The position numbers were made by a program, and so were the translations under genes. From Acidobacteriaceae bacterium (GTDB lineage: Bacteria > Acidobacteriota > Terriglobia > Terriglobales > Acidobacteriaceae): a DNA stretch of 34,159 bases. Under the pieces are notes generated by a model, which worked only from the letters and a program-made list of their open reading frames with translations, was not told the DNA's origin and made no database searches. Where the stretch lies: NCBI GenBank assembly GCA_003166855.1, contig PMUM01000470.1:1-34159 (forward strand), written 5' to 3'. This document shows positions 4,401 through 23,272 of this stretch, piece after piece (positions within the stretch are counted from its first letter, which is position 1; each line of letters opens with the position of its first letter).

Positions 4401-5436
4401 TCACCACCTGTTTTGGTTCCTTCGGGGCTTCTGCCTTCTTGCCTTCCTTCGGAAGCCAGCTCATCATGCCGCGCAGTTGCGCGCCCACGATCTCGATGGG
4501 ATGCTGTTTTTCTTTCTCGCGCAGAGCGTTGAAGTTGGGGCAGCCAGCCTTATTCTCGGCAATCCATTCCCGCGCGAACTGACCACTCTGAATGTCGGCC
4601 AGCGTCTTCTTCATTGCGGCGCGCGTGGCATCGCCTACGACCTGTTCTCCGCGAGTGAGATCCCCGTATTCGGCCGTGTTTGAGATCGAGTAGCGCATGC
4701 GGCTCAGGCCGCCTTCGTAGATCAGATCCACGATCAGTTTCACCTCGTGCAAGCACTCGAAGTAGGCGATCTCAGGAGCGTAGCCGGCCTCGACCAGGGT
4801 TTCGAATCCCTTCTTGATCAGCGACGTCAGCCCGCCACAGAGCACCGCTTGCTCACCGAACAAATCGCTCTCGGTTTCTTCCTTGAAAGTCGTCTGCAGA
4901 ACGCCCGCCCGCGTGGAGCCGATGCCATGCGCGTAAGCCAGAGCAAGTTCGTGCGCGTGACCGCTGGCATCCTGCTGGATCGCGATCAGCGACGGCACGC
5001 CGCGGCCCTCGGTGTACACCCGTCTCACCAGGTGTCCCGGGCTCTTGGGAGCGATCATCACCACATCCACGTCGGTCGGTGGAACGATCGTCTTGAAATG
5101 AATGCTGAACCCGTGCGAGACGCCTAGAACTTTGCCGGGATGCAGATACGGCTTGATGAACTGCTCATAGGTCTCCGCTTGCGTCTCATCGGGGGTCAGT
5201 ATCTGAATCCAGTCCGCCCGCTTGGCGGCTTCGTCGGGCGCTACCACGACCATGCCATCGGCTCGCGCCTGTTGGGCGCTCTTACGAGCAGCGTCTAGCC
5301 CAACAATGACTTTGAACCCGCTGTCGCGGAGATTCTGCGCCTGGGCGTGTCCCTGGCTGCCATAACCAATGATGGCGATCGTCTTGCCCTTCAATGCCTC
5401 GGGCTTAGCGTCGCGTTCATAAAAAATAGTAACCAC
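4393..5436 (-). CDS. ilvC: ketol-acid reductoisomerase, class I
   Basis: IlvC isomerises and reduces 2-acetolactate and acetohydroxybutyrate with Mg2+ and NAD(P)H, the second common step of valine/isoleucine synthesis. The 347-residue length fits class I. The Rossmann motif [21 protein letters not shown] spans residues 20-40. Metal and substrate blocks [53 protein letters not shown] and [18 protein letters not shown] are intact. The cofactor loop reads VGLDAARKS, with Asp48 where NADPH enzymes commonly have Arg, followed by Arg51, Lys52 and Ser53. The start is GTG at 5434-5436, preceded by GAGGAG at about 7 nt. It is first in the operon, about 95 nt from the predicted transcription start, and overlaps ilvG. 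Confidence 0.97.
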
Positions 5437-5509: not shown

Positions 5510-5531
5510 ATACCGACCGGTCGGTCGGTAT
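5510..5531. promoter_or_regulatory. TetR-type operator at the ilvC promoter
   Basis: A 22-bp element with matching outer arms ATACCGAC/GTCGGTAT and a perfect 14-bp palindrome ACCGACCGGTCGGT at 5512-5525. Such GACCGGTC-centred palindromes are typical of TetR-family operators. From memory, it fits the Thermus PfmR consensus (TACCGACCGNTNGGT). It starts 6 bp past the predicted -10 box of the ilvC promoter, so it covers the transcription start, and a bound dimer would block initiation. A TetR regulator is encoded at 6721-7320, but whether that protein binds here is inference. The plus-strand ppk2-tetR-cupin genes could also be targets. Confidence 0.7.
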
Positions 5532-19610: not shown

Positions 19611-19848
19611 GTTTAGAAACAATGGTTTAGGATGGATTTGGCAAACTTTCGTAACTTGCAGAATTCTTCTGGAGGGCCCTGGGAGCGGGCGGACCTGGGC
19701 TGAGGCGAGGTAAGTCTAACAACCGATTAGGTTTCGGTCTTGGTCATTGGCTGGCACGTGTTATGCCAAGCCGCCGGGAGGGCTAAATAGAGAGTGCGTG
19801 AGAACCGGGTTTCTGGGAGAACGGTGGAACAAACTCCACCAAAATCCA

Positions 19849-19943
19849 GCCGCGAAGCGGCGGCATGTGATAGCCCGGCACGTAAGTGCCGGGTAGGGTG
19901 GGAAGAGAGAGCGAGTCCCGAAGGGACGACACCATTCTCACCC
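19849..19943. repeat. cluster of palindromes in the 352-bp gap after ilvN
   Basis: The gap 19611-19962 has no convincing gene. It holds GCCGC-GAA-GCGGC (19849-19861), CCCGGCAC-GTAA-GTGCCGGG (19874-19893) and GTCCC-GAA-GGGAC (19915-19927). The third is enclosed by imperfect arms GGGTGGGAA (from 19896) and TTCTCACCC (to 19943), giving a long branched structure. GAA/GTAA loops and the modular build suggest a dispersed REP/BIME-like element. It lies just past the ilvN stop on the minus strand and could stabilise the 3' end of that mRNA. The part nearest 19611 should contain the promoter of the c-di-GMP gene, but I cannot pick boxes. Confidence 0.75.
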
Positions 19944-19962: not shown

Positions 19963-20508
19963 TTAGACCGAGTGCGAAACATCTTCTTCGGCCACGTCCT
20001 GGTCGGCGTTAGTCGCGGAGGCGGTGGCCGAGGATTTCCCTCGTCGCATGGCGACGATTCCGGTCCGCACCATCTCCAGCACACCGTAGGGGCGCAGCAC
20101 TTCGAGCAGGCCGTCGATTTTGTCTTCGGCGCCCGTGATCTCAATCGTCAGCGAATCCGGAGCGACATCGACGACCCGCGCGCGGAACACACTAGCCAGT
20201 TCCAGAACGTGCGAACGGGCCTCGTGGGTAGCTGCCACTTTGATCATGGCCAAGTCACGGACGATTGCTGGTTCATGGGTGATGTTCTCAACGAGCAAGA
20301 CGTTGACCAGTTTATACAGATTGGCTTCGATGCGGCGGGCCTGGTCGTGGTCGGCGTCGACCGTGATCGTCATGCGCGAGACTTCAGGTCTTTCCGTGCG
20401 GCCCACGGTCAGCGAATCGATATTGAAAGCGCGGCGGCGGAACAGCGAGGCTACGCGCGTCAGCACGCCCGGTTTGTTTTCCACGTACACCACGTATGTG
20501 TTCAGCAT
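19963..20508 (-). CDS. ilvN: acetolactate synthase small (regulatory) subunit
   Basis: The regulatory subunit of the IlvB-type synthase, 181 residues, the usual IlvN/IlvH length. The N-terminal ACT domain (1-75: TYVVYVENKPGVLTRVASLFRRRAFNIDSLTVG, with VSRMTITVD) binds valine in the family. The second domain (about 80-158) includes VRDLAMIKVAA and ELASVFRARVVDVAPDSLTIEITG. The last 23 residues are an acidic, low-complexity tail. The gene starts 20 nt after ilvB at the ATG 20506-20508 (weak AGAGAA site), so the two are cotranscribed. It differs clearly from the 100-residue IlvM-like protein at 2310-2612, so the window encodes two different regulatory subunits. Confidence 0.96.
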   Translation of the reverse strand: MLNTYVVYVENKPGVLTRVASLFRRRAFNIDSLTVGRTERPEVSRMTITVDADHDQARRIEANLYKLVNVLLVENITHEPAIVRDLAMIKVAATHEARSHVLELASVFRARVVDVAPDSLTIEITGAEDKIDGLLEVLRPYGVLEMVRTGIVAMRRGKSSATASATNADQDVAEEDVSHSV

Positions 20509-20528: not shown

Positions 20529-22259
20529 CTATTCATCTGCGGCGGTTTCGACAATTTTGCTGGGTCGCCGGATCATCTCGTGCAACGATGCTCCTGCCGC
20601 CACCATCGGATATACCGTGTCTTCCTGTTCCACGCGGAAGTTGATCAACACCGGACCGTCATGCTGTCGTGCCGCCCGCACCGACGGCACCACTTGCGAG
20701 CGTTCCGTGACGGTCATGCTGCGAATGCCGTATGCCTCGCCTAGTTTGGCGAAATCCGGGTTCAGCAGCGGAGTCGCTGCGTAGTTGCGCTCGTAAAAGA
20801 ACTCCTGCCACTGCCGCACCATCCCGAGAAACCCGTTGTTGATGATGGCGATGTTGACCTTCAGATTCTCCTGCACAATGGTCGCAAGCTCGCATAGCGT
20901 CATCTGGAAGCCGCCATCGCCCACGACGACCCACACGTCCGCTTCCGGCCGCGCGACCTTCGCGCCAATCGCCGCAGGCAAGGCGAAGCCCATGGTGCCC
21001 AGGCCTCCGGACGTGATCAGGCTGCGCGCCTTCTCGTGCTTGTAGTACTGCGCCTCCCACATCTGGTGCTGGCCCACGTCGGTCACCACCACCGTATCGC
21101 CGTCGCGAGTCTCGCGCCAAAGATCGTTAATCACGTGGGCCGCATAAAGATGACCGCTGTCGGGCAGGTTTTGGATGTCGCGGACGGCAGCATCGCCTTT
21201 CAGTTTGTCGATGGAGTCGAGCCACTCGCTGCGGTCGATCGATTCGATCTTCGGCAAAAGCTCGTGCAGCACTTCGCGCAAGTCGCCAACGAGCGGAACA
21301 TCGACTTTGACATTCTTGTTGATCTCCGCAGGATCGATCTCTATATGAATCTTTTTCGCGTTCGGCGCGTATGTCTTCAGGTTTCCAGTCACGCGGTCGT
21401 CGAAGCGCATGCCGAACGCCAGCAGCAGATCGGCTTCCTGGATCGTGTGATTTACCCACGCCTCGCCATGCATTCCCATCATGCCGAGATTCAGGGGATG
21501 TGCCGCCGGAAACGCGCCGATGCCCAGCAGCGTAAGCGCCACAGGAATGCCCGCGCGCTCGGCAAATTCGCGCACTTCCGCCATCGCTCCCGAAATAATG
21601 ATGCCGTGACCCGCAAGGATCACTGGCCGCTTCGAGTTGTGGATCAGTTCCAGCGCTTGTTCATACTCCTTCGGCTCCGGCGATAAGTCTGGACGGTACC
21701 CCGGCAGTTGCGGCTTGGCAGCTTCCCAATCGAACTCACAAGTCGTCTGCTGCGCGTCTTTCGTGATATCGACCAGCACCGGCCCAGGACGGCCAGAGCG
21801 TGCGACATAAAAAGCTTCTCGAATGGTTCGCGCCACTTCGCTGGCGTGCGTCACCAGGTAGTTGTGCTTGGTAATGGGAAGAGTGACGCCGGTGATGTCC
21901 GTTTCCTGAAAGGCATCGGAGCCGATCAGCTTGCTTCCAACTTGACCCGTAATGCACACGATCGGCGACGAATCGAGCATGGCCGTAGCAATTCCCGTGA
22001 CCATGTTGGTAGCGCCCGGGCCAGAAGTCGCGACAGCGACTCCCACCTGCCCGCTGGCGCGCGCATAGCCATCCGCCATGTGGGTTGCACCCTGTTCGTG
22101 GCGCACCAGCACGTGGTGGATCTTGCTGTGCTTGAGCGCGTCGTAGGCAGGAAGAATGGCTCCTCCGGGATATCCGAAGACGACTTGCACACCCTCACGC
22201 TCGAGGCATTCCCAGAGAATGCTAGCCCCGGTCATGTTCTTTCCCGATGTCTTGTCCAT
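20529..22259 (-). CDS. ilvB: acetolactate synthase large subunit, IlvB type
   Basis: A second ThDP-dependent acetolactate synthase, 576 residues from the ATG at 22257-22259. Visible blocks: [15 protein letters not shown], catalytic Glu in [60 protein letters not shown], and GDGGFQMTLCELATIVQENL with [22 protein letters not shown] prefer this ATG because AGGAAGG stands about 6 nt before it; an in-frame TTG at 22289 would fall within the attenuator's T run. It is followed by ilvN. The 190-nt leader contains a BCAA-rich peptide frame and a terminator hairpin, so expression is probably set by attenuation. It makes the classical feedback-regulated isozyme with IlvN, in contrast to ilvGM at 2310-4400. 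Confidence 0.96.
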   Translation of the reverse strand: MDKTSGKNMTGASILWECLEREGVQVVFGYPGGAILPAYDALKHSKIHHVLVRHEQGATHMADGYARASGQVGVAVATSGPGATNMVTGIATAMLDSSPIVCITGQVGSKLIGSDAFQETDITGVTLPITKHNYLVTHASEVARTIREAFYVARSGRPGPVLVDITKDAQQTTCEFDWEAAKPQLPGYRPDLSPEPKEYEQALELIHNSKRPVILAGHGIIISGAMAEVREFAERAGIPVALTLLGIGAFPAAHPLNLGMMGMHGEAWVNHTIQEADLLLAFGMRFDDRVTGNLKTYAPNAKKIHIEIDPAEINKNVKVDVPLVGDLREVLHELLPKIESIDRSEWLDSIDKLKGDAAVRDIQNLPDSGHLYAAHVINDLWRETRDGDTVVVTDVGQHQMWEAQYYKHEKARSLITSGGLGTMGFALPAAIGAKVARPEADVWVVVGDGGFQMTLCELATIVQENLKVNIAIINNGFLGMVRQWQEFFYERNYAATPLLNPDFAKLGEAYGIRSMTVTERSQVVPSVRAARQHDGPVLINFRVEQEDTVYPMVAAGASLHEMIRRPSKIVETAADE

Positions 22260-22280
22260 ACGGCCCTTCCTCGCGCTCCT

Positions 22281-22322
22281 AAAAAGCAAAACCCACCGGG
22301 CCAGCGTTTCTGGCGGGGCGGG
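22281..22322 (-). terminator. attenuator terminator before ilvB
   Basis: On the minus strand, 13-nt arms (22310-22322 and 22292-22304) form a GC-rich stem with two C-C mismatches, one G-U pair and a 5-nt loop. It is followed directly by TTTTGCTTTTT (22281-22291). It lies 30 nt after the leader-peptide stop and 21 nt before the ilvB start. The terminator segment CGCTGG (22301-22306) is complementary to CCAGCG at the end of the leader peptide frame (22358-22363), giving a possible competing antiterminator pairing. Confidence 0.75.
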
Positions 22323-22351
22323 ATTCGGGAGCCTTCAAGATTTCGTGTTTC

Positions 22352-22444
22352 TCAGCTCGCTGGTTCCCTCCACACCGGAGAGGGTATAAAAACACCTACC
22401 CCCAAGACTACGACACGAATTCGGTGTAGGTAGAGGTTATTCAT
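22352..22444 (-). CDS. branched-chain amino acid leader peptide (ilvL-like)
   Basis: A 30-codon frame starting ATG at 22442-22444 and ending TGA. Eleven of 30 residues are Val, Leu or Ile; the core, residues 11-20, reads VVVLGVGVFI. Several of these codons (CTA, GTA twice, ATA) should be rare in a genome of this GC content. It lies between a predicted promoter (22458-22486) and a terminator hairpin (22281-22322) ahead of ilvB, exactly the layout of ribosome-mediated ilv attenuation. A hairpin CTCTCC-GGTGT-GGAGGG (22366-22382) sits within the frame just after the control codons. Only about 6 nt separate the likely transcription start from the ATG, and no Shine-Dalgarno sequence is present, so translation may be leaderless. 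It is too short for routine gene calling. Confidence 0.75.
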   Translation of the reverse strand: MNNLYLHRIRVVVLGVGVFIPSPVWREPAS

Positions 22445-22457
22445 AACAGGTGCACAG

Positions 22458-22486
22458 ATGGTATCGAAGCCCGGGAGTTGCCGCAA
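22458..22486 (-). promoter_or_regulatory. putative promoter of the ilvB-ilvN attenuator transcript
   Basis: On the minus strand TTGCGG (CCGCAA at 22481-22486), a 17-bp spacer and TACCAT (ATGGTA at 22458-22463). The -10 box matches 4 of 6 consensus bases. The predicted start near 22450 is 6-7 nt before the leader-peptide ATG. It fits the gap between the murU-like gene and the leader. Confidence 0.5.
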
Positions 22487-22507
22487 GTGGAAAGTCCGCC
22501 GGGCGCG

Positions 22508-23272
22508 TCACCTCGGCGGTAATGCATAGAGTTGAAGGACCTGACGCTTTACATCGTCGGCGGCTGCAGCCACGTTTTCAGGCTTACCGAGGTCTCGCCA
22601 ATAAAAGTCGTCTGCTCGAAACGCCAAGATTCTTTCTCCCTCGCCGGCTAGCCGCAGATAAGAGTTGATGATCGAGAAGACCCCATCCTCAGCCATCATC
22701 GGAAGAAGGCGCGGAGAAATTACATGCACGCCGGAGAAAGCCAACGCCTGCTTTTCCTTTGACGGCCGGACAATTTCTAGCTCCTGATTGGGTCCAGCCC
22801 GCCGGCCGCAAAGTCGCTGCTGCTCGTCGAATAGGAGGTATCGCGACGTTTCGCGCTCCTGCACAGCCAGAGTCGCGAGTGCCTGATTCTGTTTATGAAA
22901 TTCCGCCAGGCGGCGAAAGTCAATCGTGCTGAGCACGTCGACGTTGTGCAGAAGAAACGGCTCTTCCGCGTGACCCTCTTCGAGAAAGAACCATGCCGCC
23001 TTCTTGAGTCCGCCCCCAGTGTCGAGCAACACGTCTTCGCGTGAAATCTCGATCCGCATTCCGAAGTCGTCGTTCTTCTTCAGATAATCCACTACCATCT
23101 CGGCAAAGTGATGGACATTGACGATCACCTCGCGAATCCCGAACTGCTGAAGGCGTCGAAGCGTGATCTCCAGCAACGTATGTCCAGCCACTTCCACCAA
23201 GGCTTTCGGACGATCGTCGGTGAGCGGACGCAGGCGCGTGCCGAGGCCCGCGGCCAGAATCATTGCCCTCAT
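22508..23272 (-). CDS. murU: sugar-1-phosphate nucleotidyltransferase, MurU-like
   Basis: A 254-residue nucleotidyltransferase of the RmlA/MurU group. The N-terminal motif MILAAGLGTRLRPLTDDRPKALVEVAG (4-30) binds nucleotide and metal. DTGGGLKKA (near 84-92) and HNVDVL (about 108-113) are the substrate and metal blocks, and FSGVHVISP and DFYWRDLGKPENV close the fold. In Pseudomonas, MurU turns MurNAc-1-phosphate into UDP-MurNAc in cell-wall recycling, and works with the kinase AmgK. Here the ATG overlaps the stop of the AmgK-like gene (ATGA), which supports that role. Another sugar phosphate as substrate is possible. Confidence 0.82.
   Translation of the reverse strand: MRAMILAAGLGTRLRPLTDDRPKALVEVAGHTLLEITLRRLQQFGIREVIVNVHHFAEMVVDYLKKNDDFGMRIEISREDVLLDTGGGLKKAAWFFLEEGHAEEPFLLHNVDVLSTIDFRRLAEFHKQNQALATLAVQERETSRYLLFDEQQRLCGRRAGPNQELEIVRPSKEKQALAFSGVHVISPRLLPMMAEDGVFSIINSYLRLAGEGERILAFRADDFYWRDLGKPENVAAAADDVKRQVLQLYALPPR

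Follow-up and report, generated by a model that had tools for sequence, protein, structure and literature searches.

Genes and features of the locus

The window analysed here is a stretch of 34,159 nucleotides from an Acidobacteriaceae bacterium and corresponds to contig C377 of a 6.94-Mb genome, a Sulfotelmatobacter-like MAG (479 contigs, 93% complete and 6% contaminated). Among the scanned loci, from which very near records may have been omitted, its nearest named relative is a Candidatus Sulfotelmatobacter MAG (L018), whose IlvB is 95% identical. The genes of the two acetolactate synthase subunits, ilvB and ilvN, are located on the minus strand, and the element described below occupies positions 22281–22486 of the same strand, before ilvB and downstream of another gene (22508–23272). 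An intrinsic terminator sits between the leader and ilvB, and the two genes that follow serve the biosynthesis of the amino acid that is probably sensed (Table 1). An Acido-Lenti-1 RNA (RF01687) was also observed at 19848–19893 (minus strand), in the interval that separates ilvN from a GGDEF/HD gene.

Table 1. Features of the ilvB-ilvN locus and of the element preceding it.
Feature	Position	Strand	Basis or remark
-35-like box TTGCGG	22481..22486	minus	sequence; recurs in relatives
-10-like box TACCAT, 17-nt spacer	22458..22463	minus	sequence; recurs in relatives
Leader peptide ORF MNNLYLHRIRVVVLGVGVFIPSPVWREPAS	22352..22444	minus	ATG 22444-22442, TGA 22354-22352; frame kept in 14/16 aligned
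Helix A 5′ strand CTACACCG, anti-antiterminator	22422..22429	minus	covariation in 16 sequences
Proposed control codon GTA (Val, codon 16)	22397..22399	minus	GTA at aligned place in 12/16
Helix A 3′ strand CGGTGTGG	22370..22377	minus	covariation
Antiterminator strand 2 GGTGTGGAGGGA	22365..22376	minus	folding with 22323-22312 before terminator 3′ arm exists
Helix B 5′ strand GAGCT	22354..22358	minus	overlaps stop codon; alignment and folding
Helix B 3′ strand GGCTC	22329..22333	minus	alignment and folding
Strand 3 TCCCGCCCCGCC	22312..22323	minus	common to antiterminator and terminator; folding and cross-class matching
Terminator hairpin CCCGCCCCGCCAG..CTGGCCCGGTGGG	22292..22322	minus	hairpin -18.6 kcal/mol
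T-run TTTTGCTTTTT	22281..22291	minus	sequence
ilvB, acetolactate synthase large subunit	20529..22259	minus	ATG at 22259; Pfam
ilvN, acetolactate synthase small subunit	19963..20508	minus	Pfam

Conservation upstream of ilvB

The single sequence gives weak statistics. The enrichment of Val, Ile and Leu (V/I/L) in the window's own leader has p = 0.051 and was rejected as stand-alone evidence; the minimum free energy of the leader RNA is ordinary (z = -1.19) and was set aside as uninformative. Therefore, the case rests on comparison. Thirteen genomes of the genus, the present one included, possess an IlvB match at E ≤ 1e-180, and the locus of one of them (L017) is cut by a contig end. The element precedes ilvB in eight of the 12 decidable orthologues (L001, L006–L012) and is absent upstream of ilvB in L013–L016 of the same genus. 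A wider scan used R1, a covariance model built from 16 ilvB elements only, and matched upstream of ilvB in nine of 80 named loci, namely L018 (a copy of L010), L019, L021, L022, L023, L025, L027, L031 and L032, in none of which the IlvB identity is under 78.9%. The remaining 71 named loci lack an R1 match at E ≤ 0.01; in L026, just about 100 bases are available upstream.

A sequence-only reading of the window had pointed out an internal hairpin and a GC-rich stem with a T-run before ilvB, and had suggested aligning the same region in relatives. These features are present, and in the alignment of 16 sequences the frame, the position of its stop codon, three helices (among them GAGCT/GGCTC and the terminator) and the T-run recur and are kept together. 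In 14 of the sequences the stop codon overlaps the GAGCT strand.

Other arrangements were also seen upstream of ilvB. L013, which shares a contig with L020, lacks the element but has a Val-rich ORF of its own, MGINAIRAVREVRVVGVIFSVAIRGLVLAPSGFSG, together with a GC-rich hairpin, perhaps another attenuator. Small V/L/I-rich ORFs were found in L060, L071 and L095 (two Myxococcales-like and one Anaerolineales MAG), that of L071 being GVVVVVGLIISLLL, and L060 and L095 also have a terminator-like hairpin.

The leader frame and its proposed control codon

The frame MNNLYLHRIRVVVLGVGVFIPSPVWREPAS comprises 30 codons, 11 of them for V/I/L, with CTA, GTA and ATA codons present, just as had been described from the letters. 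The two aligned sequences without an intact frame are L021, with an early stop, and L025, with a shifted frame. In the 14 intact leaders, V/I/L account for 126 of 386 residues in frame, compared with 63/386 and 37/386 in the other two frames. Val is enriched, with 17.5% of leader codons versus 7.9% in the window genes, whereas Ile (4.3 versus 5.4%) and Leu (9.8 versus 9.7%) are not. The branched-chain richness noted in the earlier reading thus comes down to an enrichment of Val, through its rare codon GTA. In fact, GTA makes up 27 of the 70 Val codons of these leaders and 53 of 653 (8%) in 15 window genes, a difference whose p-value is overstated because the leaders are related. Arg is enriched as well (15.5% versus 5.9%), perhaps owing to RNA constraints, and a role of the leader that involves Arg is conceivable.

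The GTA codon falls at alignment columns 58–60. In the window it lies 29 nt before the GAGGG core of strand 2, and the same control position is found 28–29 nt before the GAGGG/GGGGG core in 13 of the 14 leaders (20 nt in L023). GTA itself stands at this distance in 11 of the 14 intact leaders; the control position reads GTG in L010 and GCG in L012. Apart from the stretches whose RNA forms helix A or strand 2, the peptide is variable.

Promoter-like boxes and predicted 5′UTR

The promoter-like boxes that the sequence-only reading had marked are found in place and recur in most of the ilvB leaders examined; they would set the start of transcription near 22451–22450. Among the 17 ilvB leaders examined, ten have TTGC(G/A) at -35 with 17-nt spacing, and three more, L021 and L023 among them, have TTGCCA with 18-nt spacing, while the scan gave no promoter for L012, L027 and L031. 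The -10 box ends 13 nt before the ATG in the window's own leader (L001) and in L006, which predicts a 5′UTR of about 6 nt. In eight other leaders with the same TTGC(G/A)-17-TACYAT promoter it ends 20–23 nt before the ATG and the predicted UTR is 13–16 nt; the prediction is 15–16 nt in L021 and L023, 21 nt in L022 and 29 nt in L032. A peptide start about 6 nt from the transcript start, as had been claimed, is therefore predicted here and in L006 only, and the short UTR appears to be a local trait. The claimed lack of a Shine-Dalgarno sequence extends further, since nothing SD-like precedes 12 of the 17 leaders, including the window's own; the SD-like letters in the other five include three weak GGTG.

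Leaderless translation is a consistent prediction for the Cys leaders of sulfite reductase in the same genus (see below). Fifteen of these were tried and 14 located, L127 being missed by the search key, and all 14 have TTGAC promoters with a predicted UTR of 2–4 nt.

Predicted RNA helices, antiterminator and terminator

The Val codons lie within helix A (CUACACCG:CGGUGUGG), in which four of the eight pairs are changed on both sides somewhere in the 16 sequences; in comparison with shuffles, its covariation score was reached by 0/500 and its count of double-changed pairs by 10/500. The antiterminator suggested earlier, CCAGCG/CGCTGG, had to be replaced: it pairs fully in only three of the 16 sequences (L001, L006, L012 with G-U) and shows no covariation, whereas a different pairing, GGUGUGGAGGGA:UCCCGCCCCGCC, is conserved. 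Together with helix B, this antiterminator is paired in 94.7% of the cells of the ilvB alignment, with no compensatory double changes in the antiterminator within the ilvB set. In RNA that ends before the terminator 3′ arm, GGUG.GG.GGGA pairs with UCCC.CC.CGCC around GAGCU:GGCUC, with variations. The modelled structures contain mutually exclusive 1:2, 2:3 and 3:4 hairpins.

We further folded the 14 sequences with a 26-nt ribosome footprint, the figure used for Mycobacterium tuberculosis ilvB1 in the excerpted text of PMC13236596. When it is centred on the control position, the remaining pre-terminator RNA folds at -19.8 to -31.0 kcal/mol, where the value of -31.0 (L010) takes in part of the 3′ arm and the others reach -25.5. 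When it covers the stop codon, the RNA that still lacks the 3′ arm retains -0.6 to -3.8 kcal/mol, and the complete RNA then adopts a fold of -17.7 to -26.7 that includes the terminator. Shuffled sequences fold only a little less well than the pre-terminator RNA (z -0.2 to -2.7). Deleting the first 57 nt of the leader does not remove the terminator from the full-length minimum-energy fold in 14 of the 16 sequences, the exceptions being L010 and L025; a switch would thus have to act kinetically.

In L027, L031 and L032, strand 2 is CGGCCUGGAGGG, CUGGCCGGAGGG or CUGGCCCGGAGGG, similar in sequence to the terminator's own 3′ arm CUGG..GGUGGG. Across 22 elements, hand-picked to cover the classes described below, duplexes of strand 2 with its own strand 3 average -14.2 versus -12.4 for permuted partners, and one of 20,000 permutations was as good, which overstates the case as kin are treated as independent. 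The strands 2 of the variants CCCACTATCAG (L159) and CCCACCTCCGG (L153) match closely, and L162, L150, L152 and L157 rank poorly. Against shuffles, the duplex has a mean z of -1.6 in 48 elements and of -0.98 in the 16 ilvB ones, two of which are positive; for the ilvB case we judged this test insufficient alone.

Related elements in the genome and genus

In the 6.9-Mb genome itself, where 150 of 2411 first-look candidates were scored, R1 returned, at E ≤ 10, the ilvB element itself and just two further matches, 5.5 kb apart on contig C31. At C31:4073-4166 (L099) a Thr/Ile/Ser-rich frame precedes aspartokinase, and at C31:9606-9703 (L100) a Cys-rich leader, CCCTCCCCACVC, precedes nitrite/sulfite reductase. 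Thirty of 41 genomes of the genus have an R1 match at E ≤ 0.01, in 47 places, of which eight are training sequences and 39 are new. These places belong to ilvB (10), ilvC (2), aspartokinase (11) and sulfite reductase (24), as named by N-terminal resemblance with at least one member per class HMM-checked (the gene at L141 is masked), and a small frame is present at each. The aspartokinase leaders are mostly Thr-rich and those of sulfite reductase Cys-rich; weak by count are L205 (3 Thr) and L215 (5 Thr), and in L125 Val is not enriched. The genome has two occurrences of the pattern CCCACC-N4-34-GGTGGGTTT, compared with three hits of the reversed control. One is at the aspartokinase leader. The other (L114) lies behind a short reading frame containing three Cys, MFPLSTACALGCCRPAPARG, and is followed by a protein start that resembles peroxiredoxin.

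The window also holds a second cluster, ilvC-ilvB2-ilvD (5436–417). Above position 5436, before ilvC, there is no R1 match and no attenuator element is evident in the sequence, but L125 and L137 of the same genus do have the element before ilvC. Between a promoter-like TTGACA and the ilvC start of the window, the palindrome-like ACCGACCGACCGGTCGGTA at 5511–5529 looks like a repressor operator; CCGACCGACCGGTCGG is also found before ilvC in L125 and L137, and CCGGACGGTCGGTCGG upstream of ilvB in L021, L022, L023 and L025.

Related elements across the phylum

For the phylum we used R2, a broadened model from 51 matches of all classes, with stricter filters when more than 40 genomes were searched. 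As a result, 53 of 396 genomes matched in 69 places, or 67 after two antisense copies were removed, with near-identical genomes counted separately (e.g., L178 and L179). A leader is present by eye in 60 of the 67, a count that includes leaders above the p ≤ 1e-4 threshold; no convincing one was seen in L156, L160, L167, L173, L184, L192 and L194. The R2 training set contains or overlaps 14 of the 67, and without these the leaders number 46 of 53. An automatic scan found an amino acid enriched at p ≤ 1e-4 in 42/67 places and in 122/2680 random positions of the same loci, a control that includes positions on the leaders themselves.

Cys leaders dominate (49 of 60), followed by Thr (3), Trp (2), Met (2), Val/Leu/Ile (2, before ilvB and ilvD), His (1) and Asn (1). 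The downstream genes that were HMM-checked, one example each, are cysteine synthase, CysH, uroporphyrinogen methyltransferase, rhodanese, an SrpI-like encapsulin shell, peroxiredoxin, DAHP synthase, TrpE, IlvC, IlvD, homoserine dehydrogenase, GHMP kinase, HisI, a Cys/Met-metabolism PLP enzyme, a class II tRNA synthetase and a sulfur transporter. The single-case leaders (Asn, His, Trp and Met; L198, L177, L153, L155 and L157) have a similar layout. The Asn leader, NNNNN, precedes a class II D/K/N tRNA synthetase-like gene, the His leader hisI, the Trp leaders trpE and DAHP synthase, and the Met leader a Cys/Met metabolism enzyme. Cys leaders also stand before genes without an evident sulfur role (L151, L181, L197 and L200), and at L148 no gene is visible after the leader.

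Two non-biosynthetic arrangements recur. In 15 of the 16 peroxiredoxin loci scanned, with L105 as the exception, a tRNA-Cys gene shares the strand, and the order Cys leader, peroxiredoxin, tRNA-Cys on one strand is seen in L104, L107, L109, L170, L171, L172, L174, L176, L178, L187, L190, L191, L193, L196 and L199; in L106 the Cys leader directly precedes tRNA-Cys. In L102, L103, L110, L111 and L112, a Cys-containing leader stands before a rhodanese gene and an SrpI-like type 2A encapsulin shell gene (rhodanese HMM-checked in L102 and the shell in L103, all other genes assigned by resemblance).

These elements may form a widespread and modular attenuator family of Acidobacteriota, a tentative reading to which we give slightly less than an even chance as a whole. 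One RNA scaffold, with a strand 2 that mimics the terminator 3′ arm and a CCCACC/GGTGGG-type terminator, would carry exchangeable Val/Leu/Ile, Thr, Cys, Met, Trp, His and Asn leaders, would have spread by duplication between operons, and would also control the peroxiredoxin-tRNA-Cys and rhodanese-encapsulin units. A scaffold common to the classes could reflect descent or convergence.

Proposed mechanism and alternative explanations

Our preferred explanation of the ilvB element, with a probability of about 0.9, is ribosome-mediated transcription attenuation of ilvB-ilvN in response to charged tRNA-Val. Attenuation is supported by the frame, stop and hairpins conserved at 16 ilvB loci and by R1, which was built from ilvB elements alone and nevertheless matches 47 small frames before amino-acid and sulfur genes; the sequence-only reading, which had named a leader-peptide attenuator of these two genes, is thus well supported by comparison. 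In the proposed cycle, a ribosome would translate the 30-codon leader. With ample Val-tRNA it would reach the TGA and cover strand 2, leaving strand 3 free, so that the terminator forms and transcription stops before ilvB. With little Val-tRNA it would stall at the Val codons inside helix A, chiefly at the conserved rare GTA; helix A would be blocked, and the free strand 2 would pair with strand 3 once this is made, pre-empting the terminator and allowing transcription of ilvB-ilvN. Without translation, helix A would sequester strand 2 and the terminator would form. Comparison supports the frame, the stop position, the position of the control codon, the covariation of helix A and the matching of strands 2 and 3 across related elements, while the translation of the leader, the stalling, the kinetics and the response to valine are what we infer from them.

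The T-run hairpin could instead terminate the upstream gene, with a frame that arose by chance and an ilvB driven from elsewhere. The weak support of the single sequence for peptide (p 0.051) and fold (z -1.19) would suit such an arrangement, but the promoter boxes, the frame with its stop, helices A and B and the terminator have been conserved as a set, and helix A covaries within the frame, which makes it very improbable. A strongly conserved RNA with a terminator would also be expected of a metabolite riboswitch or a T-box RNA with an incidental small frame. We consider this scarcely credible, as the excess of V/I/L codons is confined to the leader frame, the codons found in related elements (Cys, Thr, Met, Trp or His) usually fit the downstream gene, and no Rfam family matches: a gathering scan and a permissive scan of 22200–22520 gave nothing near the gathering score.

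The short terminated RNA or the peptide might also act in trans, which would add to attenuation and not replace it. Both molecules would be made, and peTrpL of Sinorhizobium meliloti is a precedent in the excerpted text of PMC7298713. We nonetheless consider trans action improbable, as the peptide is variable except where its codons belong to helix A or strand 2.

Relation to known systems and significance

The proposed attenuation is itself of a known kind. In Escherichia coli, the ivbL-ilvBN attenuator likewise has a Val-rich leader peptide before ilvBN, with a longer run of Val codons than the acidobacterial leader. Polycysteine leaderless short ORFs of mycobacteria are reportedly the subject of Canestrari et al. 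2020; the acidobacterial Cys leaders, whose start codons lie near the predicted transcript start, resemble them. The mycobacterial ORFs belong to another phylum, and the acidobacterial Cys elements match a model built from Val-leader elements.

The ilvBNC attenuator of Corynebacterium glutamicum, as far as the excerpted text of PMC11857589 describes it, also controls ilvB through anti-antiterminator, antiterminator and terminator hairpins, on a leaderless mRNA with the control codons CUU and GUA. In the excerpted text of PMC13236596, M. tuberculosis ilvB1NC shares with the model proposed here a GUA regulatory codon, a UGA stop, a ribosome mask of about 26 nt and an exchange of terminator and antiterminator. 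Both systems are likened to ours by description and belong to another phylum; most same-genus leaders here have a predicted 5′UTR of 13–16 nt, in contrast to the leaderless C. glutamicum mRNA, and M. tuberculosis has a leader core LVVI in a 166-nt leader. By analogy, the acidobacterial element should work like these two ilvB attenuators, whose control codons include GUA.

According to the excerpted text of a 2010 survey (PMC2965389), hardly any predicted acidobacterial attenuator could be linked to a function; its authors knew of leader-peptide systems in Proteobacteria and Actinobacteria only, and add a case in Firmicutes. In the literature we searched, with most subscription journals outside its scope, we found nothing beyond this survey on leader-peptide attenuation in Acidobacteria, and no paper on such attenuation at encapsulin, sulfite reductase or tRNA-Cys.

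One probable acidobacterial attenuator is thus described in detail, including a proposed control codon, a corrected antiterminator and a model that picks up dozens of similar elements. For research on soil acidobacteria, such elements may serve as ready reporters of amino acid starvation. Moreover, the resemblance between elements for different amino acids is strong enough to raise the question of whether one was copied from another, and, if they do form one modular family, a shortage of Cys-tRNA would raise the production of tRNA-Cys itself.
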